DNA from: an uncultured Cetobacterium sp.
GTDB taxonomy: Bacteria > Fusobacteriota > Fusobacteriia > Fusobacteriales > Fusobacteriaceae
Length of the DNA: 64,000 nt
Direction: 5' to 3'
Assembly (NCBI RefSeq): GCF_945952365.1
Contig: NZ_CAMFHX010000003.1
Span: 1-64,000 of the forward strand
Positions 15,577 through 41,076 of the stretch are shown here, in pieces. Every line of letters starts with the position of its first letter. Position 1 is the first letter of the stretch. Position numbers and translations under genes: made by a program. The notes under the pieces were generated by a model. It was not told the origin of the DNA, did no database searches, and saw only the letters and a list, made by a program, of their open reading frames with translations.

Positions 15577-15587
15577 TAGGATTTAGA

Positions 15588-16426: not shown

Positions 16427-16427
16427 G

Positions 16428-16495: not shown

Positions 16496-16523
16496 ACATA
16501 TATAAAGATTGCAGGAGGAAAAG

Positions 16524-18533: not shown

Positions 18534-18585
18534 TATATTTTATAATAACTATGTAAAGATAAAAAACAAAACGGAGGAATTATTT

Positions 18586-19299: not shown

Positions 19300-19309
19300 G
19301 GGGAGAGTT

Positions 19310-20125: not shown

Positions 20126-20140
20126 ATACAGGAGAGAAAG

Positions 20141-20308
20141 ATGAAAAATCTCACAGAAAATGAGGATAAAGAGTTGGTTCAAAGTTTAGATATAGAGTCT
20201 CAAGAAATCGAATGGAATGATATTCTTGAAATTATAAAAAAAGAGATTGAAAATAAGGGGGAGGTTTTTAATGGAGATGATTTTAAAAGAAGGAAGGGGA
20301 AGAGTTGA
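20141..20308 (+). CDS. small acidic protein, 55 aa
   Basis: A 55-residue open frame with a good ribosome site (AGGAGAG, ATG 20141) between the phosphatase and radical SAM genes. The sequence is acidic and helical (KELVQSLDIESQEIEWNDIL) with a basic tail RRKGKS and no cysteine. It overlaps the start of the radical SAM gene by 38 nt, so the two are translationally coupled. It may be a small partner of the radical SAM enzyme; a peptide substrate is conceivable but not shown. Confidence 0.6.
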   Translation: MKNLTENEDKELVQSLDIESQEIEWNDILEIIKKEIENKGEVFNGDDFKRRKGKS

Positions 20309-23187: not shown

Positions 23188-23196
23188 TAAAAATCT

Positions 23197-23226
23197 AAAA
23201 GGTGACTTTGATTAGAGTCACCTTTT
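23197..23226. terminator. bidirectional terminator
   Basis: AAAAGGTGACT/AGTCACCTTTT stem with an 8-nt loop between two convergent genes (22090 gene and cas4). Confidence 0.85.
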
Positions 23227-23229
23227 ATT

Positions 23230-23802
23230 CTATGAAATGCATATTTTTTTAAAATAACAAGAGTTGCATTTTTCAATATTTAGATTTAAGTTTGGAATAT
23301 ATTGCCCTAAAAATATTTTTTTCATCATATTTATATTTTCAAGGCAATTAGCAAAGTCTTCTTTTTCAAAAACTACTTCAATACATTTTATAGCTCCTCT
23401 AGTGTAAACTATATAACCTTTTAATACTGTTACATTATAATTTCTTTTTATTAACAGTGCATATAAAGTTAACTGTATTAAATGCGTTTCGTGAATCTCA
23501 CCCATATACTCTGAAAACTTATACTCCACTGGTGTAGCTTCTTTTGTTGAAAAAAAAATCTCATCAACTATCCCACAAATATCAATATCTTGGTCATATA
23601 TTTTTACTTCTTTTTTATTGGATTCATATTCTTTAAATATTTTTTTTATGTAATTTTGATACTTGAATCTTTTTTTATGAAAGTTACTTCCTTCTTTAAC
23701 TAATGAATTGTTTTCTAATGGTTCTGAAAATTGATGAAGATTTTTAAAATAAATAATTCTTGGACAATAAATATAATTTTTTATATCTGTTACGGTAAAC
23801 AT
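23230..23802 (-). CDS. cas4: Cas4 exonuclease-like adaptation protein
   Basis: A 190-residue Cas4 of the PD-(D/E)xK family. Iron-sulfur cysteines are all present: Cys13 (IYCPR) and CNSCYFKKIC at 179-188. Nuclease landmarks are GIVDEIFF (Asp about 81), TPVEYKFSE (E-x-K about 92-94) and QLTLYAL. Cas4 trims prespacers and helps fix PAM and orientation. It is the last gene of the operon JAB-E1, NYN, E2, RT, cas1, cas2, cas4, directly adjacent to cas2 (1 nt gap). Confidence 0.93.
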   Translation of the reverse strand: MFTVTDIKNYIYCPRIIYFKNLHQFSEPLENNSLVKEGSNFHKKRFKYQNYIKKIFKEYESNKKEVKIYDQDIDICGIVDEIFFSTKEATPVEYKFSEYMGEIHETHLIQLTLYALLIKRNYNVTVLKGYIVYTRGAIKCIEVVFEKEDFANCLENINMMKKIFLGQYIPNLNLNIEKCNSCYFKKICIS

Positions 23803-23803
23803 C

Positions 23804-24091
23804 TCAAATAACCTCTATCAAAGAATCTTTTAAATATTTATTTATATTTATTTTTTGACCATAATATCTCAATGTTTTAAAAGAATCTTTATCTATTTTC
23901 AAAATAATAAAAGAATCTGTTTCCAAAGAGATTAACTGATTACTTTCTACTATTACTTCTTCAATATAGACTTTTTTTATATTTCCTGCAAAAATTGATT
24001 TTTGAAGTCTAAATAAACCTTTATTTTTAAGATATTTAACTATTTTAGCTCTAACCTTTTCTGACGAGATATCATACAGTATCAAGTACAT
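23804..24091 (-). CDS. cas2: Cas2 (RT-linked module)
   Basis: A 95-residue Cas2: YLILYDISSEKVRAKIVKYL with Asp at position 8, GLFRLQKSIFAGNI, and a final FKTLRYYGQK strand. The ATG at 24091 is chosen because AGGAGG lies 9 nt before it; the TTG at 24100 touches that SD and cannot use it. The first codons overlap the end of cas1 by 20 nt. It is a separate lineage from the two Cas2 copies at 5946 and 6230. Confidence 0.92.
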   Translation of the reverse strand: MYLILYDISSEKVRAKIVKYLKNKGLFRLQKSIFAGNIKKVYIEEVIVESNQLISLETDSFIILKIDKDSFKTLRYYGQKININKYLKDSLIEVI

Positions 24092-25037
24092 TTTGATCAA
24101 CCTCCTCTGTAATATTTACAAAGTATTTAGCAACTTCAAATAAATCTTGTTGTATTTTATCAATAGTTTTTATTTTTTTACCTTTAAAAGTAACTAGTTT
24201 ATTTAACTCATTATAATAAAGTGGAACTAAATTTTTTTTACCCTCATCATTCAAAAAGAAAGTATTGTTTTCAACTATAAAATAACTTTTTCTAACTTTA
24301 TTAGCTCTAAAAAACTTTGTAGCAGAAACGTATGCTATATATCGATATTTTTCAATAAAATCAAAAACAAATGATGGACGATTATAGTCATCTCTATGAA
24401 AAAATCCTAAATTTGGATCTATACCTGCAATTAATGAACTTTTTTCTATTCTGTTATATAAAATACCTAAAAAATAATTAACTAAAGCATTAAATTCATC
24501 TAATGCTGGTCTAAAACTTCTTTTTGAAAATTGAAATTGTTTTGGTAATACTTGTGATACTATTGAGAAATAAGTTTTTGAAATATTTCCTTCGAATCCT
24601 CTAATACTATTTAAATCACAATTGTTTTTTAAATTTTCTTGGAATCTGATAATATCTAATAAGTTTTCTTGCTTAGTTAAATCAGATATATGAGAATTCA
24701 TATTTAAAGCTTTTTCCTCTATCCATCTTTTTGAAATTTCTAATCCTAAAGAACTTTTAGAGCATAGGAGTTGTCCTTTTCTTATTTTTGATAGAGTACT
24801 TACTCCTGTACTCCAAAATCTTCCTTTAGGATAGCCATATTTATCTAAAATAACAATATCTATATTATTTTCTATTGCTTCTCTTAAAAATCCCGTTGTA
24901 ATTCTAACGTTTCCAGATATTAAAATACTAGAGATATCTCGATATGAATATTCTAATTTTTCATTTTTTGTTGCTACAACTAATAACTCTGCACTTTTAT
25001 AAAGAGCACATCCGTCTTGAGATATAAATACTTCCAT
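24072..25037 (-). CDS. cas1: Cas1 integrase (RT-linked module)
   Basis: A 321-residue Cas1 with the complete active site: Glu in GFEGN (about 150), His in GFFHRDD (about 218) and FDFIEKYR (about 235). It inserts spacers together with its Cas2. The gene lies 4 nt behind the reverse transcriptase gene, so the two enzymes are made together though not fused. The expected consequence is capture of spacers from RNA as well as DNA, as known for RT-Cas1 systems. AGGTGATATT precedes the ATG. Confidence 0.96.
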   Translation of the reverse strand: MEVFISQDGCALYKSAELLVVATKNEKLEYSYRDISSILISGNVRITTGFLREAIENNIDIVILDKYGYPKGRFWSTGVSTLSKIRKGQLLCSKSSLGLEISKRWIEEKALNMNSHISDLTKQENLLDIIRFQENLKNNCDLNSIRGFEGNISKTYFSIVSQVLPKQFQFSKRSFRPALDEFNALVNYFLGILYNRIEKSSLIAGIDPNLGFFHRDDYNRPSFVFDFIEKYRYIAYVSATKFFRANKVRKSYFIVENNTFFLNDEGKKNLVPLYYNELNKLVTFKGKKIKTIDKIQQDLFEVAKYFVNITEEVDQNVLDTV

Positions 25038-25041
25038 AATA

Positions 25042-25929
25042 TCACCTACTTTTATAAATTTTTTGTCCTAAAAACTCAATTTCACCAGTTTTTTTAAAAT
25101 CAATAACTCTAGATTTTTCATAATTTAAATTTAGCTTATAAGAACTTAAAATATCCTCTATATATATTATTACATTTTTTAAATCTAAATTATTTTTTAA
25201 TAAGACTAAAAAATCATCTGCATATCTTACAAAAGTAACATTACTTTCATTCAATAGTAAATCAAATTTATGTAAATAAATATTTGAATAAAAAGGACTT
25301 AAAGGTGCTCCTTGAATAACTCCTTTTTTCTTTTTAAATATATTGCCACTATAATATATCCCTTGATTTAAAAATCTATTTAAAAGTAGTATTAATTCTG
25401 GATCTTTTATTTTTTCAGCTAATATTTTTTTTAAAAGTTCATGATCTATATTATCAAAAAAAGCTTCGATATCTAAATCTAGTATATAATGATAGCCTTC
25501 ATCTAAATATTTTCTAACTTTCTCTACTGCATCTATATAAGAGATATTTTTTCGATAAGCAAAACTATTTTCTAAAAATTCATTTTCAAAAATTGGACCT
25601 AAGATACTCAGTATTGCATTTTGAACGATTCTATCTTCTAAACAAAGAATACCAATCTCTCGATCTTTACCATTTTTCTTTTTAATAAGTGCTAGTTTTA
25701 CTATCTTTGGAATATAACTATTATTTTCTAATATTTTTGAAAGATTTGATAAAAAATAAATTTCTTGTTCTGATATATCGTTTAGGGTAATATTATTTAT
25801 CCCTGGACCTTTATTTTTCTTTTTAACTTTCAAATATGCATCATATATATTGTCTAATTTTGAAATTTCTTTTAATGTTAATGATCTGTACTTTCCAAAA
25901 CTTCTGTTATCAATTGAAAATAAGTCCAT
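25042..25929 (-). CDS. CRISPR-associated reverse transcriptase
   Basis: A 295-residue stand-alone reverse transcriptase of the group II intron-like type. Motifs: VKLALIKKKNGKDREIGI (motif 1-2), LDLDIEAFFDNIDH (motif A, about 136-149), KGVIQGAPLSP (B), FVRYADDFLVLL (C, YADD about 223-226) and EFLGQKIY (D/E). No maturase X domain, DNA-binding or endonuclease region follows, and no intron RNA is visible, so it is not a mobile intron. It starts inside the last codons of the E2 gene (52-nt overlap; AAAGGTGATA before ATG) and lies 4 nt from cas1. It should make cDNA for RNA-derived spacers. Confidence 0.95.
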   Translation of the reverse strand: MDLFSIDNRSFGKYRSLTLKEISKLDNIYDAYLKVKKKNKGPGINNITLNDISEQEIYFLSNLSKILENNSYIPKIVKLALIKKKNGKDREIGILCLEDRIVQNAILSILGPIFENEFLENSFAYRKNISYIDAVEKVRKYLDEGYHYILDLDIEAFFDNIDHELLKKILAEKIKDPELILLLNRFLNQGIYYSGNIFKKKKGVIQGAPLSPFYSNIYLHKFDLLLNESNVTFVRYADDFLVLLKNNLDLKNVIIYIEDILSSYKLNLNYEKSRVIDFKKTGEIEFLGQKIYKSR

Positions 25930-26546
25930 AAGTTATCACCTTTCTTCCAATCTTCTATATATTTAACAAAATGAGGTTGCCAAGCTCCATTTTCAATATA
26001 AACACAATACCATTTCCAACCAGACTCTAAAGGTTCTTTTGCTGCAGAATGATACGCTAAATTATAAAAATGTCCATTTGGAGATATCTGTAAATCTGCT
26101 TTTAAATAAAATCCTATTGGAGGATTATTTGGATAATCAGATGGAAAAACAATTAATAAAGGAGTTTCTTTAGCTAAAAAATGCCAGTTTTTAGGTAATC
26201 TATAGTTTGGAATTATTAACCAGTCACAATTTTGTTCATCAAATTTTAAATCTTGATTTCTAAATAACTTTGTACCAATATCAATAACTTGGTTTTTTAT
26301 TATATTTTTTGATAAATCAGAACGAAGCTGAAAAAAATTACCTTTTGTTCTATCTGGAATATTACTGATTTTAGTAAAATCATCTAATTTATAAACTCCA
26401 TCATCTTTTATTGTTTCAAAACTATTTTCTTCTTTTTCAATCACAAGTCTTCTATTAGGATTTAGATTAATAGCTTTTTTTATTTGAGATCCATCAACAT
26501 CTTTTGGTGTTGGTATTGAAACTCTTTTTCCATTTATAATAGCCAT
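25878..26546 (-). CDS. ubiquitin-like domain fused to prokaryotic E2 (family E type)
   Basis: A 222-residue fusion. Residues about 1-68 resemble the multi-ubiquitin-type beta-grasp domain (INGKRVSIPTPKDVDGSQIK, NPNRRLVIEKE, VYKLDDFTKI). Residues about 75-222 match the prokaryotic E2 family E pattern: FPSDYPNNPPIGFYL (134-148), SPNGHF (155-160), His166, GWKWYCVY with Cys181 as probable catalytic cysteine, and a TYFQLITEVL end. E2 proteins carry activated ubiquitin-like proteins as thioesters. The Ubl lacks a free C-terminal glycine tail, so it may guide binding rather than be conjugated. It lies in an operon with JAB-E1, an NYN-like protein and RT-cas1-cas2-cas4. Confidence 0.8.
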   Translation of the reverse strand: MAIINGKRVSIPTPKDVDGSQIKKAINLNPNRRLVIEKEENSFETIKDDGVYKLDDFTKISNIPDRTKGNFFQLRSDLSKNIIKNQVIDIGTKLFRNQDLKFDEQNCDWLIIPNYRLPKNWHFLAKETPLLIVFPSDYPNNPPIGFYLKADLQISPNGHFYNLAYHSAAKEPLESGWKWYCVYIENGAWQPHFVKYIEDWKKGDNLWTYFQLITEVLESTDH

Positions 26547-26547
26547 A

Positions 26548-27084
26548 TTATAAGTTCACCTCACTTTCAATCTCACTTATATTATTAATATCTTTTATAT
26601 TTTCTTTCATAATTTCATTTATTGAGATAACTCCTTGTGCAATTCCTTTTAATCTCTCATTTTCATAGTTGTCGACTGAAATTAACTCTACTCTAATACC
26701 TCTATCTCTAAGAGTTTTTAGTAATGGATAAAACATACTATTTACAGATCCGAAGACAAGAATATCAATTTTGAGTTCTGAAACAAATTTTAAAATATCT
26801 ATAATCATTTCAATTTCATAAAAATTATAATCCTCCTCTTCTTTTGAGTAACTAATTGTTTTTTTTATTAAAAATCCTGATTTTTCAATATTTTCAATTA
26901 ATAATCTTTCAGTATTTTCTGTTGCATAGTTTAAATTAAAGTATGCATAAGCATCAATTAATTTTCTTCCTTCTTCTAAATTACCTAAATATTCTAAAAA
27001 TTTTTCATAATTTAATTCTATTTCCGATTTTGATACTGCATTTTGAAAACTAAAAAAATCTAAAACTACTCCAACTCTTTCCAT
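26548..27084 (-). CDS. NYN/LabA-like protein with altered active site
   Basis: A 178-residue protein with an NYN (PIN-like) Rossmann fold: VGVVLDFFSFQNAV at the N-terminus (D and N of the first motif kept) and ILVFGS...FYPLLKTLRDRGIRVELIS near 125-145. In active NYN nucleases the second motif reads SGDxDF; here the acidic positions are Ser and Asn (FGSVNSMF), so catalysis is probably lost or changed. It lies between the JAB-E1 gene (15 nt) and the Ubl-E2 gene (1 nt) and has a strong GGAGGG site. Possible roles are RNA binding or serving as conjugation target (inference). Confidence 0.65.
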   Translation of the reverse strand: MERVGVVLDFFSFQNAVSKSEIELNYEKFLEYLGNLEEGRKLIDAYAYFNLNYATENTERLLIENIEKSGFLIKKTISYSKEEEDYNFYEIEMIIDILKFVSELKIDILVFGSVNSMFYPLLKTLRDRGIRVELISVDNYENERLKGIAQGVISINEIMKENIKDINNISEIESEVNL

Positions 27085-27099
27085 TTTTTCCCTCCTTTT

Positions 27100-28425
27100 T
27101 TATAGGTTACATATAAAACAATCTTTTTTTCTATTTTTTATACTCATATTATCCTCATAAATAGTTGGTATTTTATTATTTTCATAGACTAAAATAGAAC
27201 TTTCTCTATTATAATTTGTAAACTCATTTATATAACTATCAACGGCTAATGAAGCTAAAATAGTATTTAATGTTTTTACTGCGGGGTCTTTATGCTGCGT
27301 TATATATCCTCTTTTTAAAATTTTTTCTTTAATCTCTTCACTTTTAATATTTTCATAATCAATATTTATCTGCTTTACTCTTCCTAAGCATCTTAAACAA
27401 AATTTCTCTCCTGGAAATATTTTAATAACTTCTCCACTTATATCAGATACAATACCATTTTTAACACTTATATTTACACCTATAGAAATAAATGGGATAA
27501 AGTATCTTAAGCAAAAATCATTAACAAATGCCCTGCTTGAATGATTATCTGTTGTTAAAAAAACTTTATTACTTTCTAACACTTCATTTAGTGCTTCATC
27601 TGATTTAATATCTGAGTTTATGGCTTTTATATTTAAAAAAGGATTTATTGATAATAAATGTTCTTTTAATACTTCAACTTTTAATCTTTTATCTTCAGCA
27701 TCTTTATATTTTGCACCAACTAATCTGTTTAGGTTTGAGTATTCAACAATATCATTATCTATTAAAACTAAATTATTAAAACCCATATTGATTAAATGTT
27801 CAGCAACCACAGAACCTAAACCACCAACTCCTACTATTGAAATTTTTTCAGTTGAAAATATCTTTTTTAAATTGTCAATTCCCATATAATCAATGTTTCT
27901 ATTATAAATATCTAAATATTTAGGATCCTGAATCTCTTTAGTAATATTCCATTCTTTTATTTCAATCTCTTCTATTTTTTCATCTAGATATATTCGTCCT
28001 TTATAAGAGTTGTTTGAAAAAACTAAACTTGCATAACTTGTTTTTGGATAATTTTCTTTTAAGTATTCTTTAAAATTTTTTTCATCTTCATCATCTATTG
28101 ATGAAAAGCTTACTTTACTATTTGACTCTAAAAAAGGATGGGTATGTATTTCTACTAATGTATCAACATCGACTCTTTTATCTAAATCTAAAAGTATTTT
28201 GTAAATGAAATCTTTTTTTATAGAGATATGAGTTAAACTAGAACTTAATATTTCACTTTGTTTAGGATAACAAATCTCTATCTCTTTTAAAATAACCAAT
28301 TTATTAACCTGCTCTCTTTTAGCCAGTATTATACAAAACTGTTCTTTTTTTTCATCTGAAAATAGATTTTTAAATATTTTATTCAAACTGTTTTTTTTAA
28401 AGCGTATTTCATATTTTTCATCCAA
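27100..28425 (-). CDS. JAB protease-E1 activating enzyme fusion
   Basis: A 441-residue fusion. Residues about 30-150 are a JAB/JAMM isopeptidase: EIHTHPF (His94, His96) and SSIDDED (Ser/Asp ligands), which in this family cuts ubiquitin-like proteins. Residues about 185-440 are an E1/ThiF adenylation domain: GVGGLG (199-204), LIDNDIVEYSNLNR, FLTTDNHSSR, with zinc-type cysteine pairs CLRC and CFIC. I choose TTG 28425 as start: AGGAGG lies 6 nt before it, whereas the upstream ATG (28455) overlaps the -10 of the promoter and lacks an SD. It heads the seven-gene operon ending in cas4. Confidence 0.82.
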   Translation of the reverse strand: MDEKYEIRFKKNSLNKIFKNLFSDEKKEQFCIILAKREQVNKLVILKEIEICYPKQSEILSSSLTHISIKKDFIYKILLDLDKRVDVDTLVEIHTHPFLESNSKVSFSSIDDEDEKNFKEYLKENYPKTSYASLVFSNNSYKGRIYLDEKIEEIEIKEWNITKEIQDPKYLDIYNRNIDYMGIDNLKKIFSTEKISIVGVGGLGSVVAEHLINMGFNNLVLIDNDIVEYSNLNRLVGAKYKDAEDKRLKVEVLKEHLLSINPFLNIKAINSDIKSDEALNEVLESNKVFLTTDNHSSRAFVNDFCLRYFIPFISIGVNISVKNGIVSDISGEVIKIFPGEKFCLRCLGRVKQINIDYENIKSEEIKEKILKRGYITQHKDPAVKTLNTILASLAVDSYINEFTNYNRESSILVYENNKIPTIYEDNMSIKNRKKDCFICNL

Positions 28426-28454
28426 TTTTAGCCTCCTATTTTTAATTTTACTCA

Positions 28455-28497
28455 TTTATACAAATTTCTTTTTACCTGAAAAATGAAAACTTTACCT
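28455..28497 (-). promoter_or_regulatory. two-box promoter of the JAB-E1/E2/RT/cas operon
   Basis: Read on minus: AGGTAA (28497-28492), 14 nt, AGGTAA (28477-28472), 11 nt, TATAAA (28460-28455). Both boxes carry the same AG variant, which supports a true direct repeat. Transcription should begin near 28448, downstream of the ATG at 28455. Confidence 0.65.
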
Positions 28498-28541: not shown

Positions 28542-30050
28542 ATGAGGGAAATTTACTTAGAAACTTTAAAAAATGCAATGAATGATTTTAACTATAGTAT
28601 TAGGAAAGAAGATTTATTTAAAGCAACTGAAATATATCACCTCTTAACTTTTGTAGGTCTTTCTAAAATTAGAGAATATGAAAATAGTAATATTGAAAAT
28701 AGTTGTTCTCTTTTTCCATCTTTAAAAAAATTAACGATGTTTTGTACTGATGAATCGTTAAATAATGCAATTTCACTTAAAAATAAACTTTTAAAACCAG
28801 ATTTTGAAATTCAAATCATAATTATGGATGCTAATATTTCAAATAGAAATCTTTATCACAATATTTTAAAAGTAATTAATTATCAGGATTTTGATTCTAT
28901 TTTTTTTGATACAACTCAAGGAATGAAAACTATAAGTATTGCATTTTACAAATTGGGAGTAGAGTTGGGAATTAAATCTTTAAACTGGGTATCGACTCAC
29001 TCTTTGAAAGATGATTATAATCTTTTTAGATGTATTGATAGCTTAAGAATCGATTTTTTAACCAATCCTAAAAATGAAAACTATAAATTTTTTAAACTTC
29101 TAAACGATTCAATTGATAATTATGATTTTAAAGGTGTTGCGAATCTATATAAAAGTATAAATGATAATGAAAAGTCTTTCTTTTTCGAATCGTTATCTCG
29201 TTTATTTGATGATTCTTGTATTGATATTAATTTTTTCAAAAATAATCTCAAAGATTTTATTTTTAGTTTTTCAAAACTATCTTCTTTTTCTCGAAAAAGA
29301 TTTAAAGAAGTTTTTAATATTTTCAATTTTTTTCTAAATGAAGCTGAATCGGATACTTCAATTGTTTCTTTTGATTCTTTAAGTGAGTTTGGATTTGTGG
29401 ATAGTGTAACAGAAGATGAAATTGAATATCTTTATAACTATCTTTTTATTCCTTTTCTTCTGAAAAAAATAAAAAATATAAATATTAGAGAGTTTATCTT
29501 TTCAAAGTACTTAAGTTGGTGTTTTAATAATAGAACAGTTGACTACACTATAGATAATCCGAGTTTTTATTTTGATATCTTAAATAATTTTTTTCATATG
29601 AGACAGGTTGAAGTATTTAAAAATACCTTAAATTTTACAAATTTATTAAAAGAGAAAAGGGTTGACTTTATAAATTTTTCTATGAATAGAATTGAAATTG
29701 AAGGTTATGAAATAATTTTTTCAAATAAATTTATTAGTAATTTTTTTGGAAGAGATTTAAAAAGTTTTGTTTTGAGAAGTCTTATAAATAATAAGAATAA
29801 AGAAGTTTTTATGATGGAAATTATAGATTTGATTGATAAATTAGAAATTAAAAATATATCTAAAGCTTTTTCAGATTTAGAAAAGAATTTTAAATTACTT
29901 AATATTGAATTAAATAATTTATTCTTAGAGGAAAAACTAGAATATAGAGACATCATTAAATATGTTCCCAATAAAGAGACTCGTTTAACAAATTATAAAT
30001 CTATCATTTTGAATCAATATTATTCTCCTAAAATATATATTAATATTTAA
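28542..30050 (+). CDS. CARF-domain protein with unknown effector part
   Basis: A 502-residue protein with an N-terminal CARF-like Rossmann domain: LTMFCTDESLNNAISLKNKL (about 64-83), and the ligand-loop signature FFDTTQGMKTIS (about 121-132), then INWVST-like strand. CARF domains bind cyclic oligoadenylates made by Cas10. The remaining 300 residues are helical, with no R-x4-6-H HEPN motif and no nuclease motif I can see, so the output is unknown. It resembles the CARF protein at 41866 in layout. CGGAGG precedes the ATG. A strong terminator separates it from array 3. Confidence 0.7.
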   Translation: MREIYLETLKNAMNDFNYSIRKEDLFKATEIYHLLTFVGLSKIREYENSNIENSCSLFPSLKKLTMFCTDESLNNAISLKNKLLKPDFEIQIIIMDANISNRNLYHNILKVINYQDFDSIFFDTTQGMKTISIAFYKLGVELGIKSLNWVSTHSLKDDYNLFRCIDSLRIDFLTNPKNENYKFFKLLNDSIDNYDFKGVANLYKSINDNEKSFFFESLSRLFDDSCIDINFFKNNLKDFIFSFSKLSSFSRKRFKEVFNIFNFFLNEAESDTSIVSFDSLSEFGFVDSVTEDEIEYLYNYLFIPFLLKKIKNINIREFIFSKYLSWCFNNRTVDYTIDNPSFYFDILNNFFHMRQVEVFKNTLNFTNLLKEKRVDFINFSMNRIEIEGYEIIFSNKFISNFFGRDLKSFVLRSLINNKNKEVFMMEIIDLIDKLEIKNISKAFSDLEKNFKLLNIELNNLFLEEKLEYRDIIKYVPNKETRLTNYKSIILNQYYSPKIYINI

Positions 30051-30099: not shown

Positions 30100-31118
30100 C
30101 TCTTAATCCCTTTCAGGGATATTTTTTTATTTTGAGAACTAATTGGCAAACTGGAGAAACAAAGGAAAACTTGTCTTAATCCCTTTCAGGGATATTTTTT
30201 TATTTTGAGAGAAGGTTCTATGTATAAAGGCTTCTTATCAGCGTATGTCTTAATCCCTTTCAGGGATATTTTTTTATTTTGAGGCCGCATTCTTTGGGAA
30301 CATGAAGATTGATGCGAACGAGGTCTTAATCCCTTTCAGGGATATTTTTTTATTTTGAGCGTCAAAGAGCTTGTGAGATTATTTCATTAGGAAGAAAGTC
30401 TTAATCCCTTTCAGGGATATTTTTTTATTTTGAGTTAATACAGGTAACTATGAATCATCAAGTTCTAAAGTGTCTTAATCCCTTTCAGGGATATTTTTTT
30501 ATTTTGAGTTGCTAAATCTCAAGCCAGAGATACTGAGCTTGAAAATAGTCTTAATCCCTTTCAGGGATATTTTTTTATTTTGAGGTACATATGGGGAACA
30601 AAGGAAGATTAGGCTTATTCATTGTCTTAATCCCTTTCAGGGATATTTTTTTATTTTGAGCTTGGTAGCTTAACAGGTTCTTCTACTTTATCATCAGTAG
30701 GGTCTTAATCCCTTTCAGGGATATTTTTTTATTTTGAGCCAAAAGGATGTATTTAACGCTAGAATGGAGCAGTCTGTAGTCTTAATCCCTTTCAGGGATA
30801 TTTTTTTATTTTGAGATAAAACCTCTTATATTCGATGCGGATTTAAAGTTGACAAAGTCTTAATCCCTTTCAGGGATATTTTTTTATTTTGAGTTTAGAG
30901 TCGGTAATGGCTCTTCTTTGAAAGGCGTAAAGTCTTAATCCCTTTCAGGGATATTTTTTTATTTTGAGAAAAAAAACAAAAATAAGGAGGAATTTATTAT
31001 GTCTAAGTCTTAATCCCTTTCAGGGATATTTTTTTATTTTGAGAAAGCGTTAGGATTATCTCAAGAAGAGAATAAATGGTTGTCTTAATCCCTTTCAGGG
31101 ATATTTTTTTATTTTGAG
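30100..31118 (-). CRISPR. CRISPR array 3, 14 repeats, 13 spacers
   Basis: Fourteen 37-nt repeats at 30100, 30173, 30247, 30323, 30398, 30472, 30548, 30624, 30702, 30779, 30857, 30932, 31007 and 31082. On the plus strand each reads GTCTTAATCCCTTTCAGGGA then a T-rich part ending TTTTGAG; the first has C for G at position 1. The stem ATCCC-TGAAA-GGGAT suits a Cas6 product. The long AT-rich leader with a promoter is on the right, so the crRNAs come from the minus strand and end in GGATTAAGAC, similar to GGATTGTGAC of arrays 1 and 2. Spacers are 36-41 nt. Confidence 0.98.
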
Positions 31119-31378
31119 CCGTTAGTTTTCATAGAACTCTTAATTATAGAGCTTTTATAGTATATTTTCTTTTAGTAAAATTTAGTAATTTTCTCTAAAA
31201 TTTATACTAGCTAGGATAGAAAACGCTTGTAATTTGTCTCTTGAAACATCTAATTTAGTAAAAATTTAGATACCTAAAAACCTCTTCTATTGAGCTACCC
31301 TTTTATATCTTGATTTGTCCATAGAAAAATTTTCTGGGTCTATGATATAATTATAGCATATAAAAAGTAAGTTTTCAA
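31119..31378 (-). promoter_or_regulatory. leader and promoter of array 3
   Basis: A gene-free 260-nt AT-rich stretch. On the minus strand it has TTGAAA (31378-31373), 17 nt, TATAAT (31355-31350) within TATATGCTATAAT, the same extended -10 as in the leaders of arrays 1 and 2. The first repeat follows about 230 nt downstream. Confidence 0.7.
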
Positions 31379-32778: not shown

Positions 32779-32802
32779 TTTTTTCCTCCTAGTTTTTTTT
32801 CT

Positions 32803-32845
32803 ATTATACTTTGAAGAGATTACAAAAAATTTAAACAATTTACAT
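32803..32845 (-). promoter_or_regulatory. two-box promoter of the PIN-kinase gene
   Basis: Read on minus: ATGTAA (32845-32840), 14 nt, TTGTAA (32825-32820), 11 nt, perfect TATAAT (32808-32803). Confidence 0.75.
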
Positions 32846-32865
32846 TTTTTCTTTTCATAACTATT

Positions 32866-32908
32866 TTGTAATTTTGAATAAAAAATTGTAATATACATAT
32901 ATTAAGAT
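32866..32908 (+). promoter_or_regulatory. two-box promoter of csx20
   Basis: TTGTAA 32866-32871, 14 nt, TTGTAA 32886-32891, 11 nt, TAAGAT 32903-32908. It is divergent from the PIN-kinase promoter with only 20 nt between the two sites. Confidence 0.7.
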
Positions 32909-33415: not shown

Positions 33416-35068
33416 ATGTATTTAGTATCAGTAGAAACTGTTAAAATTAAGGATTTTATTTTTAACACCAACAAACTAAAAACAATAAGAGGTGCTAGTT
33501 TTTTATTAGACTATTTAAATCAAGTTGTTGTAACCGATATTTTAAAGAAAAATCATGTCGAGGATAAAGATGTTCTTTATATCGCTGCAGGAAATGCTAA
33601 ATTTTATTGCAAAGATAAAGAGGTGGCTAAAAAAATAGAAATTGAAATTATGGAGGCTTACAATAATTTTGCTCCAGATTCAAAGCTAGCTATATCATAT
33701 ATAGATGCTGGAAATGAAAAAGTTTGGGTTGCTATGGATAAACTAGCTAAAGAAACCAATATTGTTAAAAATAAAGGGTTTTCGAAAATAAATTTAGATC
33801 TACCATTTATACAAAGATGTGATATCTGTTGTGAAAATCCAGTAGAAATAAAAAAAGAAAATTTTAATGAAACTTTAAAAAACTATGTTAAAAATTTTGA
33901 ACCATATTTAGAGAGAGAAAAATCTAAAAATAATGCAAATGAAAAATTAAAAACTTTAAATGATAGATATAAAATAGAGTCTCAAATTTTTGATAAAGAT
34001 AAAATTTCTGGAATCTGTCCATCATGTTTTGCAAAATATATAGCTGCAAATCTTATTAAAGAGGATTTCCAAGAGATTGGGTTTTATTCTGATTTTAAAA
34101 AAGAGTTTAAAGATGAGTTTAAACCTGTAGATAGCTTGGAAGAATATAAATTAAAGAAATCATTTATAGGTTTTATGTACTCTGATGGAGATTCCGTTGG
34201 TGAATTTTTAAAGAATGCTAAGGAAAATTTCCAAGATGAAGCAAAATATAAAGAGTTTATAAAAACATTCTCAGTAACTTTAGATAAACATACTAAAGGT
34301 AGCTTAATCGAAGTTTTAAAAGAGTTAAGAGAGGAAAATAAGCTTGATGAACACTTTGGAGAGTTTCTAATTGTAGGAGGAGACGACGTTTGTGCTGTCT
34401 TTCCTGGAGATATAGTTATGGAAGTCTCTACAAGATTCCAAGAAAGATTCAACGCTAAAATGAAAGATTACTATAAAACTTGTAACTTCAAAAAGAATGG
34501 TAGCAATATAACATCTTCAGGTGGTGTTGTTATAGCTAAAGCTAAAACACCTATGTATTATCTTTTTGATCAAAGTCTGACTCTTCAAAAAAATGCAAAG
34601 AAAAAGAGATATGAAACATATGAAAATAAAAATGTAGAGTTTAAAAATGGATTTATTGATTTCGCAGTTATAGGTTCTGAAGGAACAGTTAATATTGCAG
34701 AGTTCAGAAAAAGAATTAAAAACCTTATTCAAAGACCATATTCTATTGAAGATATTGATTCTTGTAAAAAAATCAATAGTTTAGTTCAATTAATTGAAGA
34801 TTTAAAAACTTCTAACTTCCCTAAAAATAAGTTAAGAATGTACTATGATTTAAAAGTTGAAATTGAGAAAAATCCTAATAAATCTATAGAAAACCTATTT
34901 TCACTTATTAATACTATTGTAAAACTTGATTCTGAACAAAAAGAATTAATTTTAAGTTGGATTGGTAAGGAAAATTTAAATAACTCTCAGGAAGATACAT
35001 TGAAAAATATATTAAATAATATTTTTGATGTAATTGAACTTTATGATTTTGTAGGGGGGAGTAAATAA
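33416..35068 (+). CDS. cas10: Cas10 (type III large subunit) without HD domain
   Basis: A 550-residue Cas10. It begins directly with the first palm-like domain (VSVETVKIKDFIFNTNKLKT) and has no N-terminal HD nuclease region, which normally takes 100 or more residues. Zinc ligands are CDICC (135-139) and CPSC (201-204). The second palm carries YSDGDS (255-260) and the cyclase motif VGGDDV (GGDD 321-324), so cyclic oligoadenylate synthesis should be intact. A helical D4-like region ends the protein. It heads an operon of coupled effector genes. The promoter region shows TATAAT at 33377-33382 but no two-box pattern. Confidence 0.93.
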   Translation: MYLVSVETVKIKDFIFNTNKLKTIRGASFLLDYLNQVVVTDILKKNHVEDKDVLYIAAGNAKFYCKDKEVAKKIEIEIMEAYNNFAPDSKLAISYIDAGNEKVWVAMDKLAKETNIVKNKGFSKINLDLPFIQRCDICCENPVEIKKENFNETLKNYVKNFEPYLEREKSKNNANEKLKTLNDRYKIESQIFDKDKISGICPSCFAKYIAANLIKEDFQEIGFYSDFKKEFKDEFKPVDSLEEYKLKKSFIGFMYSDGDSVGEFLKNAKENFQDEAKYKEFIKTFSVTLDKHTKGSLIEVLKELREENKLDEHFGEFLIVGGDDVCAVFPGDIVMEVSTRFQERFNAKMKDYYKTCNFKKNGSNITSSGGVVIAKAKTPMYYLFDQSLTLQKNAKKKRYETYENKNVEFKNGFIDFAVIGSEGTVNIAEFRKRIKNLIQRPYSIEDIDSCKKINSLVQLIEDLKTSNFPKNKLRMYYDLKVEIEKNPNKSIENLFSLINTIVKLDSEQKELILSWIGKENLNNSQEDTLKNILNNIFDVIELYDFVGGSK

Positions 35069-36666
35069 TGATAATAAAGTACAGTGCTGTTTTACAAACA
35101 CCAGCGATGACTGGAAAAGATGGAGTTATTGGAAAGGATTTAGATATTATTACAAAACTTGATAACAATGGTCTTCCATATTTTAGTGCTTCTACAATAA
35201 AAGGTATTTTAAAAGAAAAGGTATCTTTATTTTCGACAGCTTTAAACTTTAATTTTCCTATCAATAAGTATTTTGGAGTAGAAGGTGAGATTGAATCAGG
35301 TATGAGATTATCTCCTTTAACAATGGATTCTAAGAAATACTTAGAATATAAGGAGTTTTTAACTGATGATAGATCAGGAATTAGAATAGATAAAGCTAGT
35401 AAAACTACAGCTGAAGGTTCACTATTCTCATATGAGTTTATTAGAAGCGAATTGGAGTTTACTGGAGAGATTGAAATTTTTTATCCTCTTGAAGGAGAGA
35501 ATCTTAAATTTTTCAAAGCTTGTTTAGAAAGAATAGAGGCTATTGGTGGTTTAAAGTCAAGAGGATTGGGTAAAGTTAAAATTAAAGTTTTAGAATGTAT
35601 TGAAAATAAAAATAACTCTCATAAAACTTTAAATACAAGTAATCTAAAAGAGTACAGCTACACTCTTAAACCTTTAGAAAATTTAATTTTAAAAAATCAA
35701 GAGATTGGTAATGAGATTACAACTAATAACTATATTCATGGTGGAACTTTAAGAGGAGCTATTATCTCTCTTTTAGACAGAGAATTTAATGTAGATACCG
35801 AAGCTCTTATTAAAAACTTAAAAGTATCTCAAGGGTTACCTAAAGATCATTTTGTAGCTTCGGCTTCTATTTTACAAAGTAAGTATCCTGTTAAAAATGG
35901 AAAGGTAGTTCGTATAAATAAACTTTTAGCTAAGAACTCTGAAGATAAAGTTGATGGTAAAGAGGTTAAATTTGAAAGATATGGCTCTCCAATTGTTAAT
36001 AAAAACTTTGAAAAATTAGTTTTAAATAAACAAAGTGAAATAAATATTGCAATTGATAGTAAAACTAAAACCTCTGAAGAGGGTATGCTTTTTAATAAAG
36101 AGATATTTTTAGCTAAAGATATGGAGTTTTCAGGAAAAATAGTTTTAAGTGAAGAGATTGTTAAAACTATTTCAAATAGATATATCTATATTGGAAAAAA
36201 TAAAAGCAAAGGATTTGGAAAATGTTTGATAACTTTTGAACCTACAAATTTGAAGAAAGAAAAAGTTGATTCGAGTAAACTTCAAAGATTATCAAGGGAG
36301 ATTGGAACAGATAAAAAATATTTTACAATAGATTTTAATTCAGATATGATTTTACCATTTATGGATACTGAATCTATTGGTAACAAAATTAAAGCGCTTT
36401 TAGGTTTAGAATCAGTTATATGGGAAGAGAGTAAAAGTTTTATCAATCTAATCTCAATTGGTGGTTATAATCAATTAAACAAAATTAGAAAATCTACAGA
36501 GTTTGCTATTGCAAAAGGTGGAGTATTAACTTTTTCAACTACTGAATTTACTAACGACCTAATTCAAAAACTAAGTTCTATCCAAGAAAAAGGGATAGGA
36601 AGTAGAAAAAATGAGGGGTTTGGAGATGTTGAAATCAGCAGTAAAACTCATTTGGAGGTAAAATAA
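35068..36666 (+). CDS. fused RAMP protein, Cas7 (Csm3-like) plus Csx10/Cas5-like
   Basis: A 532-residue protein with two RAMP units. The first (about 1-185) is Csm3/Cas7-like: YFSASTIKGILKEKV, RSGIRIDKASKTTAEGSL and the glycine-rich GGLKSRGLGKVKI. The second (about 195-530) resembles Csx10: YIHGGTLRGAIISLL, IYIGKNKSKGFGKC (third G-rich element) and EKGIGSRKNEGFGDVEI at the end. Such proteins belong to type III-D effector complexes, where they line crRNA. The ATG overlaps the cas10 stop (TAATG). Catalytic Asp for RNA cutting cannot be fixed by eye. Confidence 0.82.
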   Translation: MIIKYSAVLQTPAMTGKDGVIGKDLDIITKLDNNGLPYFSASTIKGILKEKVSLFSTALNFNFPINKYFGVEGEIESGMRLSPLTMDSKKYLEYKEFLTDDRSGIRIDKASKTTAEGSLFSYEFIRSELEFTGEIEIFYPLEGENLKFFKACLERIEAIGGLKSRGLGKVKIKVLECIENKNNSHKTLNTSNLKEYSYTLKPLENLILKNQEIGNEITTNNYIHGGTLRGAIISLLDREFNVDTEALIKNLKVSQGLPKDHFVASASILQSKYPVKNGKVVRINKLLAKNSEDKVDGKEVKFERYGSPIVNKNFEKLVLNKQSEINIAIDSKTKTSEEGMLFNKEIFLAKDMEFSGKIVLSEEIVKTISNRYIYIGKNKSKGFGKCLITFEPTNLKKEKVDSSKLQRLSREIGTDKKYFTIDFNSDMILPFMDTESIGNKIKALLGLESVIWEESKSFINLISIGGYNQLNKIRKSTEFAIAKGGVLTFSTTEFTNDLIQKLSSIQEKGIGSRKNEGFGDVEISSKTHLEVK

Positions 36667-37052
36667 TGGATTTGTTAAGAGAGAAAGCTTTAAAAATAGT
36701 TGATAATAGATCTAATGAAATAATTAAAGAGTTTATTGAGGGAAAATTTAACTTTAAAACTGCTACTAAATCTCAGTTTGCAACTTTAGAAGGAATTTTA
36801 GAACAAAGAAATTTCAACTTAGAGTCTGAGAAAATAGAGGATTTTATACTTCAAAAACTACAAAAACAAAAAAGTGAAGATTTTTTTAAAGATGTATTTA
36901 AAAACTATATAGAAAAAAGAGAAGTGATTTTAAATTTTTTAAACTCTTCTGAAGAGGATACCAAAGTTAAAAATCAAATTTTCAGAGAGATTTTTTATCT
37001 AATTAAAATTAGTTTTAGAAAAGAAAACGCTTTAAAAACTTTAAATATTTAG
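36666..37052 (+). CDS. cas11: small subunit, Cas11-like
   Basis: A 128-residue, all-helical protein rich in Lys, Glu and Phe. Its size and place between the RAMP genes of the effector operon fit the small subunit (Cas11) that stacks along the target strand in type III complexes. Sequence conservation in this family is poor, so the call rests on position and helical composition. The start ATG overlaps the previous stop by 1 nt (TAATG). Confidence 0.75.
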   Translation: MDLLREKALKIVDNRSNEIIKEFIEGKFNFKTATKSQFATLEGILEQRNFNLESEKIEDFILQKLQKQKSEDFFKDVFKNYIEKREVILNFLNSSEEDTKVKNQIFREIFYLIKISFRKENALKTLNI

Positions 37053-37064
37053 GGGAGGGAAAGA

Positions 37065-37814
37065 ATGAATTTTAGTCAATTTAAAAATAGATATGTTATC
37101 ACAGGAGAGCTAACAGTTGAAAATGCTCTTCACATTGGAAGTGGAAAAGTTGAAGGAGATTTTGACTCAGCTTTTATAAAAACAGGAGAAAATGGTTACT
37201 ACATTCCAGGGTCATCTTTTAAAGGGTATTTAAGAAGTAAAGTTGAAGGATTTTTAGTTGGGTCACCGTTTGGATTAAAAGCTGGAAATGATTTGTTAAA
37301 TGAAGGGGATGTTCTTGGAATATTTGGTTATACAAGTTCTGATATCTCAAAAGATGATAAAGTTACAGAGAGATTAAATAAAATATTAGGAGCAGATTTT
37401 AAAAATTTTGCTTCTAAACTTCATATATCTGATTTACAAATTATGGATAACAATACAAAAGAGGTAACTAGAGATGGTATCAAAATATCTAGAAAAACTG
37501 GGGCAACTGTAAAAGGAGCTAAATTCGACTACAATGTTATTGAGAAAGGAAATAAGTTTTCTCTTGAAATGAGTTTAGAAAATATAGAAGATTATCAACT
37601 GGAACTTATTATGTTGGGATTAAAAGATATCCTTGCTGGAGATTTGTTTGGTGGAAAACTTTCAAGAGGTATTGGAAAGTGTAAATTAGAATTAAAAGCT
37701 TGTAAATTTGTAGATTCAAATGATAAAGAGTCTTTAAAGAACTATATATTTAAAGGTGAATTAAAAACAAAAGATATAAAAACTCTTAATAAAATAACTA
37801 AAATATCACTATAG
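37065..37814 (+). CDS. cas7: Cas7 (Csm3-like) backbone subunit
   Basis: A 249-residue RAMP protein of the Csm3 type: ENALHIGSGKVEGDFDSAFI near the N-terminus, with Asp at the place used by Csm3 for target-RNA cleavage, IPGSSFKGYLRSKVE, RDGIKISRKTGATV and the G-rich FGGKLSRGIGKCKL. It should form part of the backbone that holds crRNA and cuts target RNA at 6-nt steps. GGGGAGGG lies before the ATG. It is one of four Cas7-type genes in this operon, as in type III-D. Confidence 0.9.
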   Translation: MNFSQFKNRYVITGELTVENALHIGSGKVEGDFDSAFIKTGENGYYIPGSSFKGYLRSKVEGFLVGSPFGLKAGNDLLNEGDVLGIFGYTSSDISKDDKVTERLNKILGADFKNFASKLHISDLQIMDNNTKEVTRDGIKISRKTGATVKGAKFDYNVIEKGNKFSLEMSLENIEDYQLELIMLGLKDILAGDLFGGKLSRGIGKCKLELKACKFVDSNDKESLKNYIFKGELKTKDIKTLNKITKISL

Positions 37815-37823
37815 GGGGATGCT

Positions 37824-38678
37824 ATGTTTAATGTTAATAAAAATGAGATAAAAATATCTCTTAAAATTACTCCTAAATCTCCTCTTTTAATTAAGGCTAG
37901 TGATGATGTTCAGGAGAAGGGAAATCTAATTCAATGGAATACTACAGCTGGTAGTAAAGAGGCATTTATTCCTGGTTCAACTCTTAAAGGTATGTTAAAA
38001 GATATTTTCTATTCAATTTGGTATGACCACTTTAACTTAGAAGAGGATAAGTTTAAAGAGATTCCAGAGGGAAAGTATAAAAATGATGATAAAGTATATG
38101 ATTATGAAGATTATATGGAGGATATTTTAAAAGAAAAAGGTGAGGATGTTTTCTTGGAGAAATCTTTAAAAATATCTAAACTTTTTGGAGCTAAAAATCT
38201 TAAAAGTAGACTTCATATAGATGATGCTTATTTTAAAAAACATGGAAAAGAGGAGAAAGGTCCCAAAGTTGAAAAAGAGGAACCTAAATCAATTACGCCA
38301 ATAGATAGATTTACTGGTGGTGCTGTTGTTCCGTTACAATTTGAATATACAACTGATGCTTTTGTAACTGAGCTAACTATTAAAAATATTGAAAAACATG
38401 AATTAAAAGCTTTGCTTTTTGCAATAAGAGATAGTATTGATGGTGATGTTAGAATTGGTTCTTCTAAAACTAGAGGATTTGGAGAGATTGAGTTATCTAT
38501 TGAAAGTATGGAATATAAGGAGTTTAAAAATAGCTCTTTAACTTTAGATAGTTCTAACTTTAATCTAGACACAGAGAAATCTTTAAAATTAGGAGAAGAC
38601 TACCTATATAAAGTTTATAAATTAAAAGAGAACGAACCTTTGAAAAATTTTGAAATTCTAAAGAAAGTGGTTGGGTGA
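37824..38678 (+). CDS. cas7: Cas7-type RAMP subunit
   Basis: A 284-residue RAMP protein: SLKITPKSPLLIKASDD, FIPGSTLKGMLKD, SITPIDRFTGGAV (the RFTGGA element typical for Csm3/Cas7 in III-D) and IGSSKTRGFGEIEL. The region 80-120 is an acidic insertion. It is a backbone subunit of the same complex. GGGGGATG precedes the start. The end overlaps the next gene by 4 nt (GTGA). Confidence 0.88.
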   Translation: MFNVNKNEIKISLKITPKSPLLIKASDDVQEKGNLIQWNTTAGSKEAFIPGSTLKGMLKDIFYSIWYDHFNLEEDKFKEIPEGKYKNDDKVYDYEDYMEDILKEKGEDVFLEKSLKISKLFGAKNLKSRLHIDDAYFKKHGKEEKGPKVEKEEPKSITPIDRFTGGAVVPLQFEYTTDAFVTELTIKNIEKHELKALLFAIRDSIDGDVRIGSSKTRGFGEIELSIESMEYKEFKNSSLTLDSSNFNLDTEKSLKLGEDYLYKVYKLKENEPLKNFEILKKVVG

Positions 38679-39070
38679 TTAAAGTGATAAAAAATTTGGA
38701 TACTGTTATTAATGACTTAAATATAAATGAGAGCTTTAACACTATACTAGTTGATTATGAAAAGCAGAATGGAATAACAATCTCTAAAGATGTTACAGAG
38801 CTTCAGTCTCTAAAAGAAGCTACTCCTTATAAGTTCTATATATTTAATGATTCTATTATGGTTTATGGAGTAAAAATTGATGAAGATGAGTACTTTGTTG
38901 AAGAGATAAAGGCTAGTGATTTTTCTTCTGAGGCTAAAGAAGCAGTTATGTTCTTTGATGAAAAAGAGATTACTAAAGTAGTTGGAAACTCTGTGGAGAG
39001 AAAGCTTAAATTCCGTAGGGGGTTAATTGGCGGAGTTGAAAAAATACAGTTTATTGGACTGGAGGGGTAG
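38675..39070 (+). CDS. csx19: Csx19-type CRISPR protein
   Basis: A 131-residue protein with SLKEATPYKFYIFNDSIMVYGVKIDEDEYF-like strands and a conserved-looking EAVMFFDEKE segment. It lies between RAMP genes and directly before a large RAMP gene; this pairing is typical of Csx19 in type III-D loci. The start is GTG at 38675, overlapping the previous stop (GTGA); GTG 38684 is an alternative. Its molecular role is unknown in the family. The name rests on context and general resemblance. Confidence 0.7.
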   Translation: MIKVIKNLDTVINDLNINESFNTILVDYEKQNGITISKDVTELQSLKEATPYKFYIFNDSIMVYGVKIDEDEYFVEEIKASDFSSEAKEAVMFFDEKEITKVVGNSVERKLKFRRGLIGGVEKIQFIGLEG

Positions 39071-39072
39071 TT

Positions 39073-41064
39073 GTGGCAAAAGGAAAGATACAAAATGTTG
39101 ATTTAAAAAATTGTCAGATTAAAATAGGTAAAGAAATTTATAAAATAGATAAAAATACAGCAAGAATACTATCAGATGATATTTTTGCTAAAAATTCTGA
39201 AGTAGAATATATAATTTTAGAAAATAAAAATATTTCTATAAAAAAACTTAGAGGATTGGAATTTATTAAAGAAAAAAGTGTAGCAAAAAATATTCCTTCA
39301 CATTCTGGAAACTTAAAATCTATAACTAATTCTGTTACTAATAGTTTAAATAAAACTAACATGATTTTCAGTTATCCATATAACTTTGTTAGAGTTGGAG
39401 AAAAAGTTGAAAGAGAAGCAATTGATAAAGGTGAACTTTCTGGAAAGATAGTTTGTACTTTAACTAATAGATCGCCACTATTTTTCCCAGAACCTAAAAG
39501 TAGTAAGACATCTAATGATCATTCTGAAGAGATGTTCTATAAAAGAGATGGAAAGTATATTATTCCTGCAAGTTCTTTAAAAGGTAGCTTTAGAAGTGTT
39601 TTAGAGGCTATATCTAATAGCTGTTTACTTAATATTGAAACTGAGAGGCTTGAAAAAAGGCTTGGTGCTGGAGCATTTAATGATAGAGTTTTTGGAATAA
39701 TTAAAAGACTTCCTACAGAACATGAGGATGGACTTATTGTTCAGGCTACTGTTTTAAAAGTTAAAACTGAAGCTCTTCCTTTTGAATACAAAGATAAAAG
39801 AGGCAAGGGAAAAGAAAATATTTATGACTTACCTCTATCTAATTTAATAAAGAATTATGAACATATAAATAACAGTAATGATTTTGGAAAGATTACTAAT
39901 GGAAAAAAAGATATGGAGGGTATTCTTTGGATAAGTTCTGACATTTTCAGTAAGAAACATGAAAAAATACTTTATCCAACTCAAAATGGAAAATCATTTA
40001 AATTTACTATGGATGAATACAAAGATATTCAATATCTTTTAAAACAAAGAAGTGAAAGAGATTTAAAAAAGAGTGGAAAAGAGTTTTATATAGAAGATAT
40101 AAAATCTGGAGATCCAATTATTTTCCAAGTTGATAAAAATGGAAATGCTAAAAATCTTGCTTTTTCTGAAATTCCAAGATTGAGATATAAATATAGTCCA
40201 TATGATTTAGTGCCAGAAGAGTTAAAAGCTTGTGATACTTTTGAGGATGCTTGTTTTGCTTGTAGAATATTTGGAATGACTGGTAACAACAATGAGGATA
40301 AAAAAGAAGAGGATAAGGATAAGATTTCTCTTCAAGGAAGAGTTTTCTTTAAAGATGCTACTATTGATAAAGATAAGGCTAATATTCAGTCTAAACCTAT
40401 TCTTATCAAATCTCTGGGTGAGCCTCATCCTACTTTAACAGGTTTCTATCTAGAAAATGGAACATATGATGATAAAACTAAAATAAGAGGTAGAAAATTC
40501 TATTGGCATCATAAAGATAAACTTAATACTGATTATTCTAAGTTTAAAACTTCTATTACTCCTGAAAAAGAGGAAAAGCATAACTCTAGTATTCAGTTCA
40601 TGAATTCTGGAAACGAATTTAACTTTGAAGTGTCATTTAAAAATTTAAAAGAGGATGAGTTAGGACTTCTTCTTTTAACTTTAGAGTTGGAAAATGATAT
40701 GCTTCATAAGTTTGGAAAAGCTAAAGCTCTTGGTTTTGGTAGCTCAGAAGTTAAGGTAACTAATCTTTTACTTCAATCTAAAAATAGGTATGAATCTTTT
40801 GATTCTTCATATGTTGAAAGTGAAGATAAACAAAAGTTTGTAGATAGTTTTAAAAATAAATTTAATCTTGAAAACAAAGATCAATGGAAGGACTTAAAAG
40901 TTATTCTAAATCAAACTAATAAACTAGATTTCTCTAAGAGTCCATTCCCTGAAGAACAAAAATTTAATAAAAAAACTAAAACTAGTTCTGGAGATTTTAA
41001 TACTCTAAATTGGTTTTCAAATGATAAAACTAGAATTTTACCTAAAATTCAAGATTATAAATAG
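39073..41064 (+). CDS. large RAMP protein of TIGR03986 type
   Basis: A 663-residue protein. The first 80 residues are a beta-rich domain that could be OB-like; the core begins at GKIVCTLTNRSPLFF and has YIIPASSLKGSFRSVLEAIS (about 158-177), a second element FACRIFGMTGN (about 394) and HKFGKAKALGFGSSEV (about 550). This matches the large type III-D RAMP proteins annotated as TIGR03986, which cap or extend the Cas7 backbone. GGAGGGG precedes the GTG start, 2 nt after csx19. Confidence 0.85.
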   Translation: MAKGKIQNVDLKNCQIKIGKEIYKIDKNTARILSDDIFAKNSEVEYIILENKNISIKKLRGLEFIKEKSVAKNIPSHSGNLKSITNSVTNSLNKTNMIFSYPYNFVRVGEKVEREAIDKGELSGKIVCTLTNRSPLFFPEPKSSKTSNDHSEEMFYKRDGKYIIPASSLKGSFRSVLEAISNSCLLNIETERLEKRLGAGAFNDRVFGIIKRLPTEHEDGLIVQATVLKVKTEALPFEYKDKRGKGKENIYDLPLSNLIKNYEHINNSNDFGKITNGKKDMEGILWISSDIFSKKHEKILYPTQNGKSFKFTMDEYKDIQYLLKQRSERDLKKSGKEFYIEDIKSGDPIIFQVDKNGNAKNLAFSEIPRLRYKYSPYDLVPEELKACDTFEDACFACRIFGMTGNNNEDKKEEDKDKISLQGRVFFKDATIDKDKANIQSKPILIKSLGEPHPTLTGFYLENGTYDDKTKIRGRKFYWHHKDKLNTDYSKFKTSITPEKEEKHNSSIQFMNSGNEFNFEVSFKNLKEDELGLLLLTLELENDMLHKFGKAKALGFGSSEVKVTNLLLQSKNRYESFDSSYVESEDKQKFVDSFKNKFNLENKDQWKDLKVILNQTNKLDFSKSPFPEEQKFNKKTKTSSGDFNTLNWFSNDKTRILPKIQDYK

Positions 41065-41076
41065 GAGAGGGTACAA

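Follow-up and report, generated by a model that had tools for sequence, protein, structure and literature searches.

A seven-gene operon of an uncultured Cetobacterium sp. (Fusobacteriota; assembly GCF_945952365.1, contig NZ_CAMFHX010000003.1) combines a ubiquitin-like (Ubl) conjugation pathway, assigned by sequence to the known Bub (bacterial ubiquitination-like) pathway (Iyer type 6e), with the genes of a CRISPR adaptation module that includes a reverse transcriptase (RT). In the window analysed here, the whole stretch of positions 1 to 64,000 of that contig, the genes occupy 28455 to 23230 on the minus strand in the order JAB-E1, NYN, Ubl-E2, RT, cas1, cas2, cas4, as one operon with a terminator after cas4 (Table 1). 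The composition of this operon, its recurrence, the conservation of its catalytic residues and the match at its predicted cleavage site are established at the level of sequence. We interpret the locus as a CRISPR adaptation module with a built-in Bub-type conjugation pathway that uses a cysteine-bearing E2 and would place a reversible tag on a component of the adaptation machinery, a reading to which we assign a probability of roughly 0.5.

Consecutive genes, in operon order, are spaced by 15, 1, -52, 4, -20 and 1 nt (negative values are overlaps). The original prediction had described seven genes on one strand between positions 23230 and 28425, separated by overlaps or gaps of 1-15 nt and served by a single promoter. 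All seven open reading frames do lie on the minus strand; the gaps of 15, 1, 4 and 1 nt agree with that description whereas the overlaps of 52 and 20 nt are larger, and the span was nearly right, JAB-E1 starting at 28455 or at a later in-frame codon. The single promoter was not confirmed by a promoter scan, which returned 46 promoter-like sites against 56 expected by chance. Six of the seven operon proteins reach the curated Pfam cut-off of a family (Cas4, Cas2, Cas1, RVT_1, Prok-E2_E and NYN). Upstream, 86 bp separate JAB-E1 from a divergent CARF gene, which, together with the CRISPR array beyond it, also belongs to the conserved block.

Recurrence was assessed in 98 genomes of the phylum Fusobacteriota, three of which encode Ubl-E2: that of the window itself, one of the same genus (G004) and one of another genus (G002). 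For Ubl-E2, RT and JAB-E1 alike, close relatives (at least 53% identity) occur in these three of the 98 genomes and in no others. The remaining RT matches in the phylum are at most 37% identical and were rejected; no cas genes occur in the short stretches read around the three best, which resemble group II intron RTs; other JAB-E1 matches were likewise set aside, being partial and mostly limited to the ThiF/MoeB domain. Gene order is identical and gaps are near-identical across the three genomes, save that cas4 of G004 fell between two stretches and hence outside the comparison. Each of them shows the 52-nt overlap of the Ubl-E2 and RT genes, and beside JAB-E1 each has the CARF gene and a CRISPR array whose repeats belong to a single shared family. 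Because the same order recurs in two further genomes, the arrangement is not due to chance, and the recurrent link with cas1 on which the original prediction had staked its case is present.

In G002 the block lies on one contig (C3) and the type III-D effector on another (C10), where a separate array with repeats of that same family accompanies the effector; the effector proteins there are 61-86% identical to those of the window, as against 40-68% for the block proteins. This separate locus and different divergence indicate that the block holds together while moving or diverging alone, and it thus behaves as one unit. All genes that could be compared with the same-genus copy are under purifying selection, with Ubl-E2 among the most conserved.

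The assignment of JAB-E1 to the Bub pathway draws on both of its halves. Pfam recognises the E1-like half readily (ThiF, E 2e-41) and the JAB half merely at E 0.3; the latter was identified by its complete JAMM residues and by Citrobacter BubCD, the top match of the protein both in sequence (PDB profile search, E 7e-46) and in fold (AlphaFold model of mean pLDDT 70, the predicted local distance difference test; E 6e-28). The JAMM residues are E33, H99, H101, S113 and D116 (JAB-E1 numbering here and below starts at 28440). In an alignment of 14 JAB-E1 relatives these and the E1 adenylation residues are kept with two single exceptions, and the four zinc-binding cysteines are likewise conserved with few exceptions. 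The crossover loop of the E1 holds no conserved cysteine, the G002 copy having a single unconserved one. A tyrosine, Y379 (codon 27304-27306), is present in 14/14 of the aligned sequences and corresponds by profile alignment, with an offset of 2 allowed, to BubCD Y370, a residue mutated to Phe in one PDB entry. In work on Bub by Ye et al. 2026 this tyrosine reportedly carries the Ubl as an oxyester.

Ubl-E2 matches Prok-E2_E (PF14462) at E 5e-7 in Pfam, and the domain is found in 4/4 members; its profile weakly matches the eukaryotic E2 structure 2fo3. The leading fold matches of its structure model are all UBC E2s and BubB, none reaching E 0.001, which is too weak to carry a fold claim by itself. 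The E2 core foreseen by the original prediction is upheld in preference to another fold. The putative catalytic cysteine C181 is invariant in the Fusobacteriota copies and in two relatives from other phyla (L008 and L009, described below) with canonical C-x7-W-x-P spacing, and is absent from the aligned plasmid Bub E2s. At the boundary between the two domains the fused Ubl reads RTKG|N, and it aligns without gaps with the ends of stand-alone Ubls, whose C-termini NFG (Mesorhizobium), TTEG (Oscillatoria) and KGGC (L009) coincide with G69. Because of this gap-free match with natural Ubl ends, G69 is predicted to be the processed C-terminus.

These features also bear on whether the E1 and Ubl could form a sulfur-carrier system of the ThiS/ThiF kind that performs no conjugation. 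Kinship of the E1 domain with ThiF and MoeB is what such a system would display, yet the presence of a JAB domain, the canonical cysteine of the E2 and a top match to BubCD rather than ThiF all speak for conjugation, and no sulfur genes lie nearby; we judge this alternative unlikely in the extreme.

The NYN protein departs from its family at the active site. Intact NYN RNases require three aspartates (D13, D118 and D143 in the Bacteroides fragilis NYN; PMC11346440); aligned with the intact NYNs of L008 and L009 and with VPA0982 (2qip), the window protein retains the first (D9) and has E90 and N115 in place of the second and third. All three adaptation operons keep the first aspartate; the second position reads E/Q/E in the three genomes, and the third reads N/D/N. 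Because most of the catalytic aspartates are lost, the NYN of these operons is probably not an active RNase. Its dN/dS (nonsynonymous to synonymous substitution ratio) of ~0.16 against the G004 copy indicates purifying selection, and therefore retention for a role other than ordinary catalysis: the protein may serve as a scaffold, bind RNA or be the target of tagging. One could instead take the NYN to be the core of an RNA-processing unit under Ubl control, linked to adaptation through the trimming of RNA protospacers, a possibility raised among others by Chi and White for the B. fragilis NYN (PMC11346440). The intact NYNs that accompany Ubl-E2 and JAB-E1 in L008 and L009 would fit such a unit, whereas the eroded active site of the adaptation-operon proteins makes an active RNase unlikely, and we regard this explanation as highly improbable.

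A scan across phyla, taking one genome per species with two short patterns and not exhaustive, yielded two further Ubl-E2 relatives. L008, a metagenome-assembled genome (MAG) of the Proteobacteria, encodes Ubl-E2, JAB-E1, a small protein and NYN, followed at the contig end by cas6 (Pfam E 2e-9), and its genome holds several Cas10 genes; 395 genomes of its phylum and 22 of its class added nothing new. L009, a MAG of the Armatimonadetes, encodes NYN, a stand-alone Ubl, E2 and JAB-E1, with no cas genes on the contig and no Cas10 in the genome. Its stand-alone Ubl (1480-1692) ends in VKGGC, one residue past a double glycine, which fits a JAB-trimmed precursor. Searches of plasmids and viral contigs did not find Ubl-E2, nor were close RT relatives found in viral contigs.

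Separately, chromosomal E2 genes with a cysteine (GWTxCC motif) were seen in four Armatimonadota (L099, L101, L103 and L104), directly beside JAB-E1 in L101 and L104; no CRISPR genes occur in the stretches read around the Armatimonadota pairs. A contig of a viral collection (L125, 7290-9386) carries a Ubl-E2 fusion (GWNWYC) and JAB-E1 beside a DnaJ-like protein, with neither NYN nor cas genes in the stretch read.

Since defence genes cluster, the block might simply be an independent Bub-like operon that has hitch-hiked beside adaptation genes in a defence island with no functional link, and the sample, three genomes from a single family and one cas6 neighbour from a different phylum, fits such a view. 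Against it, NYN sits between the E1 and E2 genes, the Ubl-E2 and RT genes overlap, the order has outlasted 40-68% divergence and a change of locus, and that single cas6 neighbour comes from another phylum; hitch-hiking is in our view distinctly unlikely. A stronger contender, if still an unlikely one, is that the Ubl pathway forms an antiviral arm of its own, tagging phage proteins as Bil does and merely co-expressed with the adaptation genes. Bil and CBASS demonstrate that bacterial Ubl pathways serve in antiphage defence (PMC11354881, PMC10097602), and relatives of the present genes exist without CRISPR genes. However, the all-or-none co-occurrence with RT and cas1 suggests a shared task, as do the Ubl-E2/RT overlap in all three genomes and the joint movement of the block.

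The adaptation half of the operon has the components of an RT-associated adaptation module: an RT with intact YADD, family matches for cas1 and cas2, and a CRISPR array. PDB matches of the RT include group II intron RTs and the Cas6-RT-Cas1 structure 7kft. The neighbouring effector, with Cas10, Csx10/Cas5 and Csm3-type proteins recognised by PADLOC, is of type III-D; it is likely the user of the array and stands outside the block itself. Spacers gave no significant match when compared with phages. As in the RT-associated type III modules with RT-Cas1 or Cas6-RT-Cas1 fusions, an RT with intact YADD accompanies cas1 and cas2 and a type III effector is served; unlike those modules, this one encodes the RT as a protein of its own, includes cas4 and has a Ubl pathway upstream in the operon.

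Both halves are known, as Bub-type conjugation and as RT-type III adaptation. The former shares with Bub (type 6e) a JAB domain fused N-terminally to an E1-like domain, a Prok-E2_E domain, a Ubl with a processed C-terminal glycine that is sometimes fused to an E2-like domain, and an E1 that has the conserved tyrosine (Y370 of Citrobacter BubCD) and no crossover-loop cysteine. It differs in having a single Ubl domain, an added NYN and a CRISPR adaptation setting, and no operon protein has a Pfam match to DUF6527, the treble-clef metal-binding companion of Bub. It differs also in the cysteine of its E2, which is missing from the RWD-like E2s of type 6e and from the aligned plasmid proteins. For want of this residue Iyer et al. 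2006 called the type 6e E2s inactive (PMC1779556).

Bub, then, is the closest known system, in place of the Bil-like and CBASS modules named in the original prediction. Bil (BilABCD) also encodes Ubl, E1, E2 and JAB together, but as four separate proteins, where here JAB and E1 are one; we know of no link between Bil and CRISPR. Type II CBASS, through Cap2 and Cap3, places E1/E2 chemistry and a JAB partner in an immune operon, but needs a CD-NTase and an E1-E2 fusion, neither of which was found in the block by Pfam or PADLOC. The E1 of Bil, moreover, carries a Cys domain (PMC11354881), in contrast to the crossover loop described above. The NYN is likewise set apart from the CRISPR-associated NYN ribonuclease by its incomplete aspartate triad.

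The original prediction knew of no E1-E2-JAB module within a CRISPR adaptation operon, and indeed no ubiquitin-like/Cas1 operon is described in the literature searched, nor did that literature yield this seven-gene order, a Bub-type background with a cysteine-bearing E2, the cleavage site mapped here or the pseudo-NYN. The CRISPR link is nonetheless not wholly new, because the survey by Altae-Tran et al. 2023 (PMC10910872) names ThiF in its figure legends as linked to adaptation modules and counts NYN, ThiS and Prok-E2 as CRISPR auxiliary genes, so that the co-occurrence may have been recorded before without analysis. The Prok-E2 named in those legends is family A, whereas the family here is E, and the text describes neither a mechanism nor a fixed RT-Cas1-Cas2-Cas4 order.

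If the operon is indeed a tagged adaptation module, the JAB half would cut the Ubl-E2 precursor after G69, and the E1 half would adenylate G69 and pass the Ubl, probably via Y379, to the E2 cysteine C181. The E2 would then attach the Ubl to a target, from which the JAB could take it off again. That target would be part of the adaptation machinery, namely the NYN pseudo-nuclease, the RT or Cas1, the candidates that the original prediction had also named, and tagging would switch or retarget spacer capture during infection, possibly from RNA via the RT, with the III-D effector using the spacers. The more specific proposal, that a reversible Ubl tag on RT-Cas1-Cas2 or on its NYN subunit controls when, and from which nucleic acid, spacers are captured, is one that we hold only tentatively. 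Several observations weigh against our preferred interpretation as a whole: the full block is carried by three genomes only; Ubl-E2/JAB-E1 pairs occur without a visible CRISPR link in L009, L125 and the Armatimonadota, so that the pathway can act elsewhere; the structure model of Ubl-E2 is poor (mean pLDDT 50), and the putative N-terminal Ubl is assigned by alignment without a confident model; and the sequence points to no substrate.

Other parts of the window have CRISPR-related or signalling content of their own. The stretch 1570-5949 holds a second cas1 (4978-5949) and, on the other strand, a Cas6-like/RAMP pair; relatives of these genes adjoin another, larger Cas10 on contig 25 of G004. 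The second CARF protein of the effector operon (41866-43530) has an R-x4-H motif (RENMYH) that is missing in G004, and its HEPN assignment is doubtful. Positions 10755-22022 and 31441-32898 encode metallo-beta-lactamase, HSP70-like, vWA, kinase, second vWA, PP2C and radical SAM proteins together with a PIN-kinase protein; parts of this kinase/PP2C cluster recur, ~78-91% identical, beside the III-D effector of both G004 and G002, and it looks like a phospho-signalling set tied to that effector, apart from the Ubl block. At the border of the block, the protein at 22090-23187 has a long Gly/Ala-rich hydrophobic C-terminus, and the effector locus of G002, which lacks the block, has this protein as well.

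Table 1. Coordinates of the operon and associated features in the window.
Feature	Coordinates	Strand	Remarks
JAB-E1 fusion (BubCD-like)	27100..28455	-	451 aa; JAMM peptidase at the N-terminus, E1-like adenylation domain at the C-terminus
NYN-domain protein	26548..27084	-	178 aa; Pfam NYN E 2e-13; active site degenerate
Ubl-E2 fusion	25878..26546	-	222 aa; Ubl, residues 1-69; E2 domain, ~80-222
G69 codon	26340..26342	-	predicted mature Ubl C-terminus and JAB cleavage site G69|N70
C181 codon	26004..26006	-	predicted E2 catalytic cysteine within C-x7-W-x-P motif
Reverse transcriptase	25042..25929	-	295 aa, YADD intact; RVT_1 E 2e-35, PADLOC RT E 5e-81
cas1	24072..25037	-	Cas_Cas1 E 7e-62
cas2	23804..24100	-	start likely 24091; CRISPR_Cas2 E 3e-14
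cas4	23230..23802	-	Cas_Cas4 E 6e-15
Intrinsic terminator	23196..23227	-	12-bp stem then T-rich tail; strong; just past cas4 stop
Divergent CARF protein	28542..30050	+	502 aa; PADLOC CARF E 1e-10; without HEPN R-x4-6-H motif
CRISPR array	30100..31119	+	14 repeats (36-37 nt), 13 spacers of 36-41 nt
Type III-D effector operon	33416..43530	+	Cas10, Csm3-like, Csx10/Cas5, Cas6, second CARF; PADLOC matches

Set in a fixed operon with RT-Cas1-Cas2-Cas4, a Bub-type pathway can be offered a definite task and a small number of candidate targets. Two questions would thereby become testable: what Bub-type pathways act upon, and by what means the capture of CRISPR spacers is controlled in the course of infection. 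The cysteine of the E2 found here bears, in addition, on the kinship of thioester E2s with the cysteine-less E2s of Bub. More broadly, the block suggests that control of immune memory-making by protein tagging may occur in bacteria and, if the more specific proposal of a reversible tag on the adaptation complex is true, this would be the first instance of protein conjugation controlling the formation of immune memory.

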